Assembly (NCBI GenBank): GCA_021788115.1 | Contig: JAJYLA010000005.1 | Coordinates: 1-64,000 of the forward strand | Length of the DNA stretch: 64,000 nt | Direction: 5' to 3' | Origin: Actinomycetes bacterium | Lineage (GTDB): Bacteria; Actinomycetota; Acidimicrobiia; Acidimicrobiales; Palsa-688 | Shown here: piece after piece, positions 58,236 to 64,000 of the stretch | Layout: each line of letters begins with the position of its first letter | How positions within the stretch are numbered: the first letter of the stretch is position 1 | Position numbers and translations under genes: made by a program | The notes under the pieces: model-generated | What the model saw: only the letters and a program-made list of their open reading frames with translations | Database searches by the model: none | What the model was told of the DNA's origin: nothing

Positions 58236-59240
58236 GTGGGCGCCCGTGACGAGCTCGACCAGGCCCTTCACCCCAAGCGGACCGGGGACCTCGACGCGGC
58301 GGTGCTCGCCCTGGAGGCGCTGCTCGGCCGCCGGCCGGCGCACCCTCTGGCGCTGGCGCACCTGGCGGACGTGCAGATCCGGCGGGGGAGGATCGACGAG
58401 GCGACCGCGGCGCTCGACCGTGCCGAGGAGGCGGCGGGGACCACGACGTTCACGTCACGGCTGCGCGGCGACCTGCACTACAGGGCGGGGCGCTTCCGCG
58501 ACGCGGCGCGCGCCTACGAAGTCGCCGACGCCCTGGGCGAGAAGGGCGCCTGGCATCTCGTCCAGCTGGCCCGCTGCCGGCTGCGCCTGCGCGACCTCGA
58601 GGGGGCGCGCGGCGCCGCGCTGCGCGCCGTCGAGCGGGAGCCCTCCCAGGCGGCGGGCTGGCTGGTGCTCGGTGACGTCGCCGCGCGGGAGCAGCGCTTC
58701 GCGGTCGCCGAGGATATGTACAGCCGTGCGCACGATGCGGCACCGGGCGACGGGTTCGCGTACGCGAAGCTGGTCGAGGCTCGCCTGCTGCGGCTGCCGC
58801 CGGAGGCGCGCTCGAGAGAGGTGGAGGTCCTCTTGAAGACCACCGGCCGGGGCAACCGGCACCTCGAAGCCGTGCTGGCCCGGATGCGCAGCGCCCAGGG
58901 CGACACAGGGGCCGCCGCGGAGGCGTGGGGGCACACCGCAGCCGAGCACGGCGACCCCTACTCGCGCCGCATGCACGGCTTCTCTCTCCGCAAGGCGGGT
59001 CGCCTCGACGAGGCCGCGGCGGTGCTCGGGCGCTGCCTCGCCGACGAGCCGCACAATATCCCGGTGTTTCGGGCCTACATCGCGGTGCAGCGCGACCGCG
59101 GCGCCTTCGAGGAGCTGCGCCGCACCCTCGAAGCGATCCTGCCGCGAGCCGGCGCCCGCCGCGGCGCTTACTACGGCGAGCTGCGCAAGCTCCCCGCACC
59201 CCGCGCCCCGGACACCGAATCCGGGTCACGTCCCCGGTGA
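58236..59240 (+). CDS. Tetratricopeptide-repeat protein
   Basis: The 334-residue protein is built of about seven helix-turn-helix TPR units, for example LAHLADVQIRRGRIDEATAA (about 41-60), ARCRLRLRDLEGARGAALRA, and RMHGFSLRKAGRLDEAAAVL (about 248-267). There is no signal peptide or membrane span, so it is probably a cytoplasmic scaffold. The start is GTG 58236. It is divergent from gltB and ends 13 bp before the giant ATPase gene, so the two may be cotranscribed. Whether it belongs functionally with that gene is unknown. Confidence 0.85.
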   Translation: MGARDELDQALHPKRTGDLDAAVLALEALLGRRPAHPLALAHLADVQIRRGRIDEATAALDRAEEAAGTTTFTSRLRGDLHYRAGRFRDAARAYEVADALGEKGAWHLVQLARCRLRLRDLEGARGAALRAVEREPSQAAGWLVLGDVAAREQRFAVAEDMYSRAHDAAPGDGFAYAKLVEARLLRLPPEARSREVEVLLKTTGRGNRHLEAVLARMRSAQGDTGAAAEAWGHTAAEHGDPYSRRMHGFSLRKAGRLDEAAAVLGRCLADEPHNIPVFRAYIAVQRDRGAFEELRRTLEAILPRAGARRGAYYGELRKLPAPRAPDTESGSRPR

Positions 59241-59253
59241 GGGCGGCGGTGCC

Positions 59254-62200
59254 GTGACCCGGGCGTCCCGCGGCGCGGCGCAGGGCGGCGGAGTCCCGGC
59301 CGGCCGGGCGGCCGAGCCGGTCCTCGGGGACCTGCTGACCGTCGCCGAGGTGGACACGGTCGTCCGACTCGACGGGCCCGGCGGCCTCCTCCCGGAACTG
59401 GTCCTGACCGGCGACGTGACCGCCGGCCTGTCGGAGGTCCTCGCGGCTGCGCGGGGCCCGACCGGTGCCGGGTTCTTCGTCGTCGGGCCGTTCGGCTCGG
59501 GCAAGTCGCACTTCCTCGCGGCGGTCGGCGAGCTGCTCGGGGACCCGGACGGCGCCAGCAGGATCGCCGGCTGGGAGACCTCCCTGCGAGAGGCCGCCCG
59601 CCCCGCCCGGCGTTCCCTGGCGGTGCGCGTCCCGCTGGTCGAGTACCGAGCGGCGGCAGCCCTCGAGGACGTGGCCACGGAGCGCGCCTCGCGTGCGCTC
59701 GGCCTCGGCGCGCCGGACTCGGGGACGGATCGGGCGGCCCACTGGGACCGCGTCCTCGACTCCGCGAGGAGAGGCGGCCACGACGGGCTGGTGCTGCTGC
59801 TCGACGAGCTCAGCGAGTTCCTGCGCGCCAAGCGCGGCGCGGCGCTCACCGAGGATCTCCGCTTCTTGCAGTTTCTCGGGGAGTGGGCCGGGGAGCGCCC
59901 GGTCGTCGTGCTCGCAGCCCTCCAGGAGAGCATCGACGAGGTCGCCAACGTCAGCGAGCGCGAGCTGTCGCGCATCCGGGACCGGTACCGCCCGAGCCTG
60001 ACCCTGTCGATGCGCCACGTCGAGGACCTGGTGAGGGGACGACTCGTGCGCCTCGCCCCCGGCGCCGGCGAGTGGATCGACAAGGTGCACGCCGAGCTGA
60101 GCGCCGCCTTCCCGGGCGCCCCCCTCGACCGGCAGCGTCTCGCCCGGTGCTACCCGCTGCACCCCGCCACGCTCGAGGTGCTCGAAGGGCTCCGCTTCCT
60201 GCTGTCGCAGCAGCGCGGCGTCGTCGACTTCGTGTGTCGTCAGGTGAGGGCGGACCTCGACCGGCCCTACACGCACCTCATCACCCCCGAGCGCGTCTTC
60301 GACCACTTCCGGGACCGCCTTCGCGAGCGGCGCGAATCCGCGCGCCTGGCCGACGCGGTGGTGCCCCACTACGAGCGCGCGGCGGACGAGATGTTCGACC
60401 CGGGCGACCGGGAGCTCGCCCTGCGGGCGGTGAAGCTGCTGTGCCTGCTGGCCGCCTCCCCGCTCGAACGGCCTCGGACCGCCTCCGAGCTCGCCGGCAT
60501 GCTGCTCGCCAAGGTGAGCGACGTCGAGCCGGCCGCCAACACCGCGTACCTCGAGTCGGTCGTCCTCGAGCCGTTGGCAGCGCGCGGCGCCTACGTCGTC
60601 GCCGACGCCGGACCGCCCCGGACCTACGAGGTGGCGGTGGAGGCGGACGCCGCGATCGTGCTCCGAGCCCGTCTTTCCCAGGCGCGCGCCGAGATCCACG
60701 ACGCCGATCGTCGCCTGGTCACGACGCTCGTGGAGCTCGGCTCGACGCCCAGCTTGCCGCTCGCGTTCATGGCCCAAGTCGGGTTCGCCCGGCGCGACCT
60801 GCTGTGGCAGAACACGCCCCGCTCCGTGCTCGTCGGCATGGCACGCCTGGCCGAGGTCTCCGCGGCGGAGGCCGAGCAGCTCGTCGGCCACGCGCGCGGC
60901 TCCGGGGCGGAGGGGGTGCTGCTCGTCGCCGAGGTCGAACTGTCGGACGAGGAGGATTCGGTACCCCAGGCCCGCGCCCTCGCCGGAGGCCAGCAGCGGG
61001 TCGCGGTCTGGGTGCCCGATGCGCTCACGGCGGACGAACGCGACGCACTGGTCGAGCTCCACGCCCGCCGGCGGGTCGCTGAGGCGGCGCGCTCGGAAGG
61101 GCGCGACGACCTGGTCGACCTGCTCGATCGCGGCTCCGACACCGAAGTGGCGCGAGCGCGCGAGATCCTCCGCCGGCTCTACTTTTCCGGCTCGCTCGTC
61201 GCTCGCGGCACGGGCGAAGCACCGGTGGCCGCCGCCCCCGACCTGCCCTCCCTTGCAGGTGTCGCCTTCGAGCGGCAGCTTCCCGCCCTCGCCGACGTCC
61301 TTCTGTCGCGCTTGCACCCGCGCCACGGTGAGGTGGCGCCGCGCGGCGAGCTGGTGGGCGACCGTCTGGTCCGCCAGATCGTGACGGACGTCATCGCCGC
61401 GGGCCGGCTCGGGGCTGCTGCGCTCGAGCGTCAAAGGCTCCGTCCGCTGGTCGACGGCTATCTCGCCCCCCTGGGCCTGGCCCGGACCCGCCGGGAGGGC
61501 GCGGTCGTGGCACCGGATCCCGCACGGAGCCCGGCCGTCGCAGAGGCTCTTCGGCTCGTCGGCGAGGGGGACCCGGTTCCGGGGCCGTCCGTGGTCGCCG
61601 CGCTCGCGGACGGCCCTTTCGGCCTCACCGATCCTGAGTCGCTGCTGGTTCTCAACGCGTGCGCGCAGGCGGGCCTCCTCGAAGTGTGGCGGGGGCCGCG
61701 GCGGCTGGCGGAGCCGTTCCTGGCGCTGACCAGCGCGGACACCCTGGTCGCCGGCGAGCTGGTCGAGCCGGCGCTGCGTGAGTCGATCGCGGCGCTTTCG
61801 CCTGCGGTGACCGGTCCTGGCCCCTTCGATCCGTGGACATCCCACACGCAGCGCACGGCGTGGGACTACGCGCGCGTTTGGCTCGAAGCGCAGCGCGAGA
61901 ACGTGGCGCAGGTACGGGCCGGTCTGGTCGCCCTCGAGGACATCCCCGCCCTTGCCGGCGCCGACAACGCCGACGCCCTGGCCGATGTCGTCCTCGTGGA
62001 GGGGGTCGTCGAGGGCTGCCCGGAGCAGGCGCCGGCAGCCGAGGGCTTGCGGAGGGTCGCCGCCGTGGCGACCGGGCTGGACCCCGCCGAGCTGCTCGCC
62101 GCCGGACGGCGTGTCGGCGCCCTGGCCCGCTTCTTCCGTGACGATCTCCGTCGCATCGCCGAGGCGGCCGGCTACCTCACCAGCCCCGAGCTCACGATCC

Positions 62201-64000
62201 CCGAGGAGGACGAGCGGCTCCGGATGCTGCACACCGCGGCCCTCGCCCTGCTCCCCCAGGTGCTGCGACTGGCGGCCGGGGACAGGCTCGCGGACATGAC
62301 CGGGGCGATCCGCGAGCTGCGCAGCGCCTACGGCGCTTCCTACCAGAAGGCGCACGACCGCTTCTACTCCGCCGTCGGCTCCCGCGAGCTCGATGCCGTC
62401 CGCTCCGCCCCCGCGTACGGGGCTCTCGCCGCGCTGGCGGGCATGGGCGCCGTGGCGGTCCCGGATGATCGCGTCAAGGTGGACCGAATGCTGGCGGCTG
62501 CCGCGCCGGCTCCGTGCACGCGCCGCGTGGAACTGGAGCTCATGTACCGGCCGCGCTGCATCTGTGGTTTTGGACTCGGCGATCCGGCCCCGACGTTCGA
62601 TCCGGCCGCCGTTCTCGCCGTCGTCGAGCGCGGTGTCGGCGAGTATCTCGCCGAGCTGTCGGCCCCCGAGCACGCTGCCCGCCTTGCCGACGCCGCAGCC
62701 GACCTCGACGCCCTGGGACGCGCCGAGATCGCCGCCGACCTGCGACGGGTGGCAGAGCTGGCGGCCGGCAATCGCGAAGGGCCCGTCGCGGGCGAGGCTG
62801 TGCTGACCGCGCTGACAGGTCTGTTGACCCCCGGGGTGCAGTCCCTGCTCCGCGACGTCCTCGGTGGCGGCCAGCTGATCGTCGGCCGAGACCTGGGCGC
62901 TCTGAGAGAGGACCTCATCGGCCGGCGCTACCCCAAGCGCCGGCTGCTCGAGCTCCTCGCCTCCTGGGTCGACCCCGACGGCGCGCTCCCGCCGACCGCG
63001 TTCGTCGAGGTTCGCGACAGCACCGATGCGCAGCGGCGTGGCGGCCCCGGGCTCGCCGCCGGCCACCCTGGCGCCCTCCCCGGGCGCGCCGGTCCCCCGG
63101 CGGGGTCGTCCGCCACGGCGTCGTTCCTCGGCGCCCGCTATCCCGCGCTGGCCGGGGTGCTGCCCGCCCAGCAGGCGGCCGACGCCTTCTGGCTGGCCGC
63201 GTGGTGGCACGGGCGGCCCGGTCCTCCGTCGTGGATACCTCCGGGGCTCCTCGACGACGAGCGGCTCCTGGTCGCAGCCGAGGCCGCGCTCTCCGACCCC
63301 GAAGCGCTCGAGGAGCTGGCCGACCTCGACCGTCGTACGGAGCCGGCCACGGTGCTGGGTGGCCAGGTCGCGGCCGCCCTGTCGCTGGACTCCGCGGACC
63401 TGGCGGGCGTGGTGGCCGCCCTCAGGGGCGAACGGCTGTTGCGCCGGCCCGTGCGCGCGGCCGCCGACCAGCTCGTCCGTCGCCTCGCCGGCGACTGGCA
63501 GGGGGTCGGGCGCATGGGGCCGATCGACGTCCGGGAGGTGGCCTCTCGCCACGCCCTTCTCGCACCCGGCGAGGTGGTCGCGCTCGACCACCTGCTCGAG
63601 GCCGCGCGCCACGTGGCCGAGATCGAACGGAGGGTGCCGGGGGCCTCCGCGGCGGAGCTAGCCGAGGAGATCTACCCGGACCACGCTTCCGCGGTCGCGG
63701 AGCTGGTGAGCCGGGCGGAGCTGGCGAGCGCGGGCCCGTCGGTGGTCGGGCCCGACGCCGTTGATTTCCTCCGCGCCCGGGCTCGCAGGGTCCTCGCCAC
63801 GGCGGACGACGCCTTCGCGTCGCACGCCGGCGCCGGCTTCCCCGGTTGCCTGGCCATCTCCGATGTCGGCAGGGTCGTGCTCGAGCCTCTCCTCGGCGCG
63901 TACGGGAGGGTCGCGGTGCTCCTGGTGGACGCCATGCGCGCCGACGTCGCCCGCCACGTCGTCGCGGAGCTTCGCCGGCTGTCCCCCGACCGGGAGGTGA
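59254..64000 (+). CDS. Giant P-loop ATPase of BrxC/PglY (DUF6079) type with PglZ-like domain, 3' end outside window
   Basis: The frame runs from GTG 59254 to the window end without a stop, giving 1582 residues. Walker A is GPFGSGKSH (78-86), Walker B VLLLDELSEF (180-189), and the opening LGDLLTVAEVDTVVRLD with FFVVGPFGSGKSHFLAAV closely resembles DUF6079/BrxC proteins. Residues 1102-1104 form C-I-C in MYRPRCICGF. At the edge, GRVAVLLVDAMRADVARHVV (about 1551-1570) looks like the first metal-binding strand of a PglZ/alkaline-phosphatase fold. BrxC and PglZ are normally separate proteins of BREX phage defence. A defence role is inference. Long antisense frames here are artefacts of GC-rich coding. 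Confidence 0.8.
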   Translation, partial: MTRASRGAAQGGGVPAGRAAEPVLGDLLTVAEVDTVVRLDGPGGLLPELVLTGDVTAGLSEVLAAARGPTGAGFFVVGPFGSGKSHFLAAVGELLGDPDGASRIAGWETSLREAARPARRSLAVRVPLVEYRAAAALEDVATERASRALGLGAPDSGTDRAAHWDRVLDSARRGGHDGLVLLLDELSEFLRAKRGAALTEDLRFLQFLGEWAGERPVVVLAALQESIDEVANVSERELSRIRDRYRPSLTLSMRHVEDLVRGRLVRLAPGAGEWIDKVHAELSAAFPGAPLDRQRLARCYPLHPATLEVLEGLRFLLSQQRGVVDFVCRQVRADLDRPYTHLITPERVFDHFRDRLRERRESARLADAVVPHYERAADEMFDPGDRELALRAVKLLCLLAASPLERPRTASELAGMLLAKVSDVEPAANTAYLESVVLEPLAARGAYVVADAGPPRTYEVAVEADAAIVLRARLSQARAEIHDADRRLVTTLVELGSTPSLPLAFMAQVGFARRDLLWQNTPRSVLVGMARLAEVSAAEAEQLVGHARGSGAEGVLLVAEVELSDEEDSVPQARALAGGQQRVAVWVPDALTADERDALVELHARRRVAEAARSEGRDDLVDLLDRGSDTEVARAREILRRLYFSGSLVARGTGEAPVAAAPDLPSLAGVAFERQLPALADVLLSRLHPRHGEVAPRGELVGDRLVRQIVTDVIAAGRLGAAALERQRLRPLVDGYLAPLGLARTRREGAVVAPDPARSPAVAEALRLVGEGDPVPGPSVVAALADGPFGLTDPESLLVLNACAQAGLLEVWRGPRRLAEPFLALTSADTLVAGELVEPALRESIAALSPAVTGPGPFDPWTSHTQRTAWDYARVWLEAQRENVAQVRAGLVALEDIPALAGADNADALADVVLVEGVVEGCPEQAPAAEGLRRVAAVATGLDPAELLAAGRRVGALARFFRDDLRRIAEAAGYLTSPELTIPEEDERLRMLHTAALALLPQVLRLAAGDRLADMTGAIRELRSAYGASYQKAHDRFYSAVGSRELDAVRSAPAYGALAALAGMGAVAVPDDRVKVDRMLAAAAPAPCTRRVELELMYRPRCICGFGLGDPAPTFDPAAVLAVVERGVGEYLAELSAPEHAARLADAAADLDALGRAEIAADLRRVAELAAGNREGPVAGEAVLTALTGLLTPGVQSLLRDVLGGGQLIVGRDLGALREDLIGRRYPKRRLLELLASWVDPDGALPPTAFVEVRDSTDAQRRGGPGLAAGHPGALPGRAGPPAGSSATASFLGARYPALAGVLPAQQAADAFWLAAWWHGRPGPPSWIPPGLLDDERLLVAAEAALSDPEALEELADLDRRTEPATVLGGQVAAALSLDSADLAGVVAALRGERLLRRPVRAAADQLVRRLAGDWQGVGRMGPIDVREVASRHALLAPGEVVALDHLLEAARHVAEIERRVPGASAAELAEEIYPDHASAVAELVSRAELASAGPSVVGPDAVDFLRARARRVLATADDAFASHAGAGFPGCLAISDVGRVVLEPLLGAYGRVAVLLVDAMRADVARHVVAELRRLSPDREV

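Follow-up and report, generated by a model that had tools for sequence, protein, structure and literature searches.

The window analysed here covers positions 1-64,000 of an assembly contig of 67,211 bases and ends inside a giant gene on the + strand (59254..64000), of which it holds the first 1582 of 1763 codons. The unbroken frame of 1582 residues described in the original prediction is present (59254-63999, open at the window edge) and extends 545 bases beyond the window to a TAG stop codon at contig 64543-64545; an early stop of the frame had been named as speaking against the prediction, and the frame does stop shortly after position 64000, yet the PglZ core is complete by then. The length of the frame is in itself weak evidence for a gene, because the GC content of the window is 71.5% and the opposite strand carries an unbroken frame of 1720 amino acids over the same DNA (58450-63612). 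The GC content at the three codon positions is 82/54/90% in the sense and 88/59/79% in the antisense frame, the sense frame being closer to the local genes. Homology rather than frame length decides that the gene is real and coding, i.e. matches in Pfam and NCBIfam and the presence of full-length homologues, six of which were aligned from related actinobacterial genomes (55-64% identity), with others found in further phyla at 21-25% identity.

The giant gene is preceded on the same strand by a gene with a GTG start codon encoding a protein of 334 amino acids with TPR matches in Pfam (58236..59240, +), which ends 13 bp before the giant gene and belongs to a family for which we aligned 16 sequences (A4). 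Judged from reading the sequences, the two genes have gltB/gltD, UbiD and a gene for a hydroxyacid dehydrogenase at one flank, and genes for an MFS protein and an SDR at the opposite flank. The pair has a GC content of 75-76% compared to 71% for gltB, which is inside the local range, and this slight excess is not strong evidence for a foreign origin.

A BrxC-like ATPase and a PglZ core in one chain

Residues ~22-1250 of the giant form a BrxC/PglY (DUF6079)-like body (59317..63003, +). Pfam DUF6079 matches residues 72-354 (E 1.6e-19), NCBIfam BrxC matches under its family cut-off (E 1e-10), and the PADLOC models matching the protein are BrxC, SspC and PglZ. A profile built from 15 giants of several phyla (A3) was aligned by hhalign with BREX type-3 BrxC over 1124 columns (E 1.7e-45), columns 5-1226 of the giant corresponding to 2-1226 of 1241 in BrxC; searched against the PDB, it retrieves the solved BrxC 9zdx (E 3.2e-14) and PorX 7pv7 (2.7e-4). 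In a structural model of residues 22-1130 of the window protein (pLDDT 87.6), the relative domain positions are unreliable because of a pTM of 0.46; its best structural match is BrxC 9zll_C (Z 22.2, 407 residues within the N-terminal ~440), well ahead of ORC/Cdc6 at ~14-15, and residues ~460-1130 are tied to BrxC by the sequence-profile match. The N-terminal part of the giant is a whole-length BrxC, i.e. an ORC/Cdc6-type AAA+ ATPase with a long tail.

The sequence motifs that were originally predicted, i.e. Walker A, Walker B, a CxC pair near residue 1102 and VLLVDAMRADVARHVV at the window edge, are all present. The Walker A motif GPFGSGKSHF (residues 77-86; 59482..59511, +) has G78, G81, G83, K84, S85 and H86 and the Walker B motif LLLDELSEF (residues 181-189; 59794..59820, +) has D184, E185, S187 and E188 invariant in the 15 giants, which share 21-64% identity with the window protein. 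A RIRDRY sequence (residues 240-245; 59971..59988, +), which is RI(K/R)DRY across the 15 giants with I241, D243 and R244 invariant, is a candidate arginine-finger motif by analogy to AAA+ ATPases, and an EDLRFLQFLGE stretch is nearly invariant. A Cys motif C-x13-C-x-C-G-F (C1088, C1102, C1104; 62515..62571, +) is invariant as well; the C1102-x-C1104 pair most likely is part of the BrxC body, since a C-x(n)-PVCPHC motif also occurs in BREX-3 BrxC, close to the C-terminus.

The PglZ phosphodiesterase part spans residues ~1290-1750. It begins with a helical linker (residues ~1290-1550; 63121..63903, +), followed by the catalytic core, of which the window holds the start (63904..64000, +) with D1559 in VLLVDAMRAD, the stretch VLLVDAMRADVARHVV representing residues 1555-1570; T1595, D1672, H1676, D1715, H1716 and H1734 are encoded at contig 64001-64545. 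NCBIfam PglZ matches residues 1553-1718 (E 2.2e-9) and Pfam PglZ scores the protein as well, both under their cut-offs, and the profile of the giants aligns with the BREX-3 PglZ core with E 4.4e-6 (profile-profile probability 87%). We modelled the C-terminal part, from residue ~1063, for a relative with 64% identity over the whole protein (L038), using 23 sequences (pLDDT 88.3). Top matches in Foldseek are PorX and the BREX PglZ 9zn5_B; by VIA, the model aligns with PorX at Z 25.5 (289 residues, 3.3 A) and with 9zn5_B at Z 19.0 (429 residues, 5.7 A). The C-terminus belongs to the alkaline-phosphatase superfamily (PorX/PglZ, then NPPs), in agreement with the fold originally proposed for it. The alignment with 9zn5_B, linker included, spans PglZ residues 169-748, and the N-terminal ~100 residues and the C-terminal Ig-like domain of PglZ are absent. 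In BREX, these N-terminal ~100 residues bind BrxB (PMC13326643); as the alignment begins only at PglZ residue ~169, the fused PglZ is devoid of the BrxB-binding first ~98 residues.

D1559, D1672, H1676, D1715, H1716 and H1734 are invariant in the 15 giants, and T1595 together with the PglZ metal residues is invariant in the 23 sequences. In the profile alignment T1595 corresponds to T272 of PorX, picked out via the T272A mutant chain 7pvk, and H1734 to the conserved His of the HGG motif, H500. The counterparts of PorX T272/H500 are T538/H741 in Escherichia fergusonii PglZ, which are involved in metal binding and upon mutation result in lost or reduced nuclease activity and weakened defence (PMC12205998). 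Judged from these residues, the C-terminus of the giant is a PglZ with an intact active site and a putative nuclease. Within a single polypeptide, PglZ follows a complete BrxC; the fusion had been predicted, and the two parts are joined in all full-length homologues across phyla. On a haloarchaeal plasmid (Halorarius; L100 8974-15062), a BREX-like locus has brxC and pglZ as adjacent genes, 2 bp apart, and a layout of this kind is a plausible starting point for a fusion.

Distribution, TPR pairing and genomic setting

The window protein as a single query retrieved nothing from genome contigs and an alignment of seven sequences was required to detect relatives. The giant is present in 9 of the 61 nearest genomes, its own included, and in 3/296 genomes of a class-wide sample, 1/396 of a phylum-wide Actinomycetota sample, 2/149 Neomarinimicrobiota, 5/247 of the phylum of Acanthopleuribacter and 3/40, one partial, of a small phylum that includes the 'Deltaproteobacteria' PRO9 MAG, the giant/TPR pair thus being rare and patchy (0.3-8% across five broad samples). 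At least seven named phyla contain homologues of the giant, the records being Acidimicrobiia/Actinomycetes MAGs, Neomarinimicrobiota, 'Deltaproteobacteria', Stahlbacteria/WOR-3, 'Deferribacteres', Schekmanbacteria and Acidobacteria, the latter including the isolate Acanthopleuribacter pedis; a copy from Fermentibacteria is cut off by the contig end. Three architectures are found, i.e. an actinobacterial one (~1680-1830 aa), one carrying an insertion of ~65 residues (1650-1770 aa) and that of a short group from Acidobacteria/Schekmanbacteria (about 1420-1480 aa), and every complete copy terminates in the PglZ core. A more divergent giant of 1769 aa from the phylum of Acanthopleuribacter (L071 125-5434; 907 bits to the profile) possibly represents a further subgroup. 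Giants in two MAGs are apparently frameshifted, due to assembly error or decay (L026 9174-13699; L044 1161-6345), and a Schekmanbacteria genome with a giant also encodes an unfused DUF6079-like ATPase of 1123 aa (L073 9734-13105). No full-length giant was found on phages or plasmids; phages had no match at all, ten matches on viral contigs were weak and covered part of the ATPase only, and plasmids had only ordinary, separate DUF6079/BrxC genes.

A TPR protein of ~320 aa, belonging to a single family, adjoins the giant at 32 loci. At 17 loci from actinobacteria and 7 from elsewhere it is encoded on the same strand just upstream; overlaps of 4-20 bp with the giant gene are frequent, and at two of these loci one or two genes separate the pair. 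In the short group it is divergent from the giant at 8 loci, a gene intervening at one of them. Genes lying between the two include a PIN-like gene (L046 9587-9862) and an MNT-HepT toxin-antitoxin pair (L050 8797-9626), both in Neomarinimicrobiota. No TPR neighbour was seen at L055 and at L071, the latter close to a contig end, and L047 begins right at the edge of its contig; these three genomes have a member of the TPR family on another contig (359, 158 and 346 bits for L055, L071 and L047, respectively). Among the 61 relatives, the genomes with the giant and those with the TPR protein (E <= 1e-20) are the same nine (chance 6e-11, ignoring kinship), and the pairwise divergence of both proteins correlates with r 0.99 overall and 0.83 within actinobacteria, both values being inflated by shared phylogeny. 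The TPR pairing is near-obligate, and this genetic linkage suggests that the TPR protein docks on the giant; its function is not readable from the fold alone, because TPR profiles match many unrelated TPR structures. Of the compact defence or stress system with an upstream TPR gene that had been predicted, the two-gene pairing stands, whereas a role in defence or stress stays presumptive.

Beside gltB, which is present in 40 of 41 relatives, the giant/TPR pair is not generally found. Six relatives have a tRNA-Val(CAC) 5' of gltB and unrelated DNA after it; three of them carry phage-type tyrosine integrases there (integrase/tRNA regions L080 1326-2564, L083 2273-3500 and L085 1352-2465), showing that the site beside gltB, where the pair of the window lies, is variable and a hotspot of integration. 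We sought a clean empty/occupied pair with matching flanks beside gltB among the relatives and obtained none, because the window has no tRNA-Val(CAC) beside gltB; the downstream MFS gene is unusable as a second flank because it is present in only 5/40 relatives. A patchy spread and a site visited by integrases would fit a mobile trait of an accessory or defence kind.

At the other loci the neighbours of the giant are mostly metabolic or housekeeping genes, e.g. for aconitase, IDH and a tRNA synthetase. The original prediction regarded a purely housekeeping neighbourhood as contrary evidence, and the neighbourhoods are mostly, not purely, of this kind, their defence-type members being scattered toxin-antitoxin genes and RadC only. 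No defence island was seen at the loci of the giant, and we rejected the PADLOC matches of neighbours as indicating one, as these are mostly single matches to a generic helicase, kinase or sigma-54 regulator. The predominance of housekeeping neighbours weighs against regarding a defence role as proven.

BREX loci include a PglX-type methyltransferase or, in type 4, a PAPS reductase. The pglX or other BREX genes that the original prediction considered as possible downstream neighbours did not turn up. By tblastn at 35 loci (602 kb; flanks at many of them spanning between a few and 10 kb, with MAG contigs frequent), queries for PglX-type methyltransferases from BREX-3 and haloarchaea gave no hit, nor did BrxF and a separate or second PglZ, and related BREX controls were detected; BrxA and BrxB gave no hit either, in a search that is insensitive for these small, fast-evolving proteins as single queries were used. 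HerA/FtsK was found neither in the ORFs read at the loci of the giant nor among the 25 commonest of 104 Pfam families in 70 neighbours. At one locus, in one genome only, a large helicase-like gene convergent with the giant (L029 12461-16111, - strand) weakly matches a BREX-3 helicase (E 2.7e-8).

Possible functions of the two-gene module

Invariant catalytic residues at 21-25% identity, the constant TPR partner and the matched divergence of both proteins argue for long-term selection. As a bare architecture, the BrxC-PglZ fusion with its TPR partner is almost certainly a selected module. An anti-phage or anti-plasmid role appears most likely, and we give about even chances to the full statement, according to which this is a two-gene, methyltransferase-less, BREX-derived module acting in defence as a TPR-regulated BrxC-PglZ nuclease. 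More tentatively, the module may be a stand-alone two-gene immune system of at least seven phyla, in which the BrxC-PglZ fusion and a TPR gate restrict invaders without DNA modification. It would then represent a minimal 'restriction half' of BREX and distinguish self from non-self on a basis other than methylation.

The BrxC part would bind DNA and shift its assembly state with ATP, like purified BrxC, which binds DNA and forms ATP-dependent assemblies (PMC13326643). The docked TPR protein would assume the bridging or gating job of BrxB, which in BREX bridges the AAA+ domain of BrxC to PglZ (PMC13326643). This gate may open in response to invading DNA, to stalled replication or to some other stress signal, upon which the metal-dependent PglZ domain would nick or cut nucleic acid or, alternatively, hydrolyse a nucleotide signal. 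As self would not be marked by a methyltransferase, a DNA or protein state, and not an unmodified site, would have to act as the trigger.

PglZ-fold enzymes also serve signalling outside of defence, as in PorX, and the giant might accordingly be an accessory regulatory or stress machine, its AAA+ part and the TPR protein sensing the state of the cell and its PglZ part, like PorX in the control of type IX secretion, hydrolysing a nucleotide or (cyclic) oligonucleotide signal. PorX being the closest solved fold, a phosphodiesterase solved with pGpG in 7pvk, as well as the housekeeping neighbours and the TPR partner as a common type of scaffold agree with this. We nevertheless consider it rather unlikely, as the N-terminal two thirds of the protein are a BrxC, which the parts of the literature covered here have so far placed in BREX, Ssp and BREX-related defence loci (PMC12839542, PMC13326643), as the very patchy distribution differs from that of a core regulator, and as the Pfam scan of the giant revealed no response-regulator domain such as the receiver of PorX.

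Less probable still is that giant and TPR protein belong to a larger BREX or BREX-related system with the methyltransferase, BrxA/BrxB and other genes elsewhere in the genome. The TPR gene itself is unlinked in up to three genomes, suggesting that split loci may occur, and the short flanks and many MAG contigs leave room for it. The tblastn search with its detected controls argues against such a system, as does the loss of the BrxB-binding domain from the fused PglZ; in the window's genome, Pfam PglZ has one match elsewhere, weak and under the cut-off, in an unrelated alkaline-phosphatase-like protein (L001 1501-1695; contig C120 3858-4052). A functionless BREX remnant, in which brxC and pglZ were fused by loss of a stop codon at a decaying locus, is very improbable: adjacent genes as in Halorarius make a read-through fusion easy and a few copies look frameshifted, but the catalytic residues stay invariant across phyla and the TPR partner and its matched divergence are maintained.

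The architecture of the family bears on how BREX restricts phage. Recent work reportedly proposes BrxC, linked via BrxB to the PglZ nuclease, as the core of BREX, with methylation and restriction being separable. The natural hard-wiring of BrxC to PglZ, with neither a BrxB docking domain nor a methyltransferase in view, amounts to an independent test of this core model by evolution, and giant and TPR protein offer a simple two-protein system for studying ATP-gated PglZ activity. BREX searches expecting separate BrxC and PglZ genes miss this family spread over many phyla, and so does the Pfam PglZ model with its cut-off.

Comparison with BREX and related systems

The closest functional comparison is the BrxC:BrxB:PglZ core of type I BREX (Acinetobacter/E. 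fergusonii; PMC13326643; PDB 9zn5, 9zll, 9zdx), which shares the BrxC ATPase body, the PglZ catalytic fold and their physical coupling with the giant. The giant achieves this coupling covalently in a single chain and lacks the BrxB-binding domain and the C-terminal Ig-like domain of PglZ; neither BrxB nor PglX was seen, and a TPR protein is present instead. BREX type 3 (BrxF, BrxC/DUF6079, PglXI, BrxHII, PglZ, BrxA) resembles the giant in the full-length homology of BrxC including the Cys motif and, as far as described in the passages considered, in a PglZ without C-terminal extension (PMC12839542), and differs in having separate genes, including a methyltransferase and a helicase. According to the same passages, BREX-Related Capture (BRC) and type-3 BR systems likewise combine a DUF6079/DUF499 ATPase with a reduced PglZ outside of canonical BREX, but with ATPase and PglZ as separate proteins and with HerA/FtsK, STAND, DUF4007 or methyltransferase/helicase partners (PMC12839542). 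BREX-related fusions mentioned there are iSTAND-PglZ in type 4 and BrxL-HKD; these passages of the 2026 survey, supplements aside, do not mention a BrxC-PglZ fusion (PMC12839542), and a direct phrase search of the literature returned none. PorX, a response regulator of type IX secretion, is the closest structural match of the C-terminus with the same catalytic Thr and His, and differs in carrying a CheY-like receiver where the giant has a BrxC ATPase and in its signalling context. We do not class giant and TPR protein as BREX, because BrxC and PglZ are fused instead of separate genes and no methyltransferase was found; the pair is expected to act like the BrxC:BrxB:PglZ core, yet lies outside BREX proper. 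The fusion and its nearly constant place beside the same TPR gene in distantly related bacteria point to a BREX-like system of very compact form, undescribed so far.
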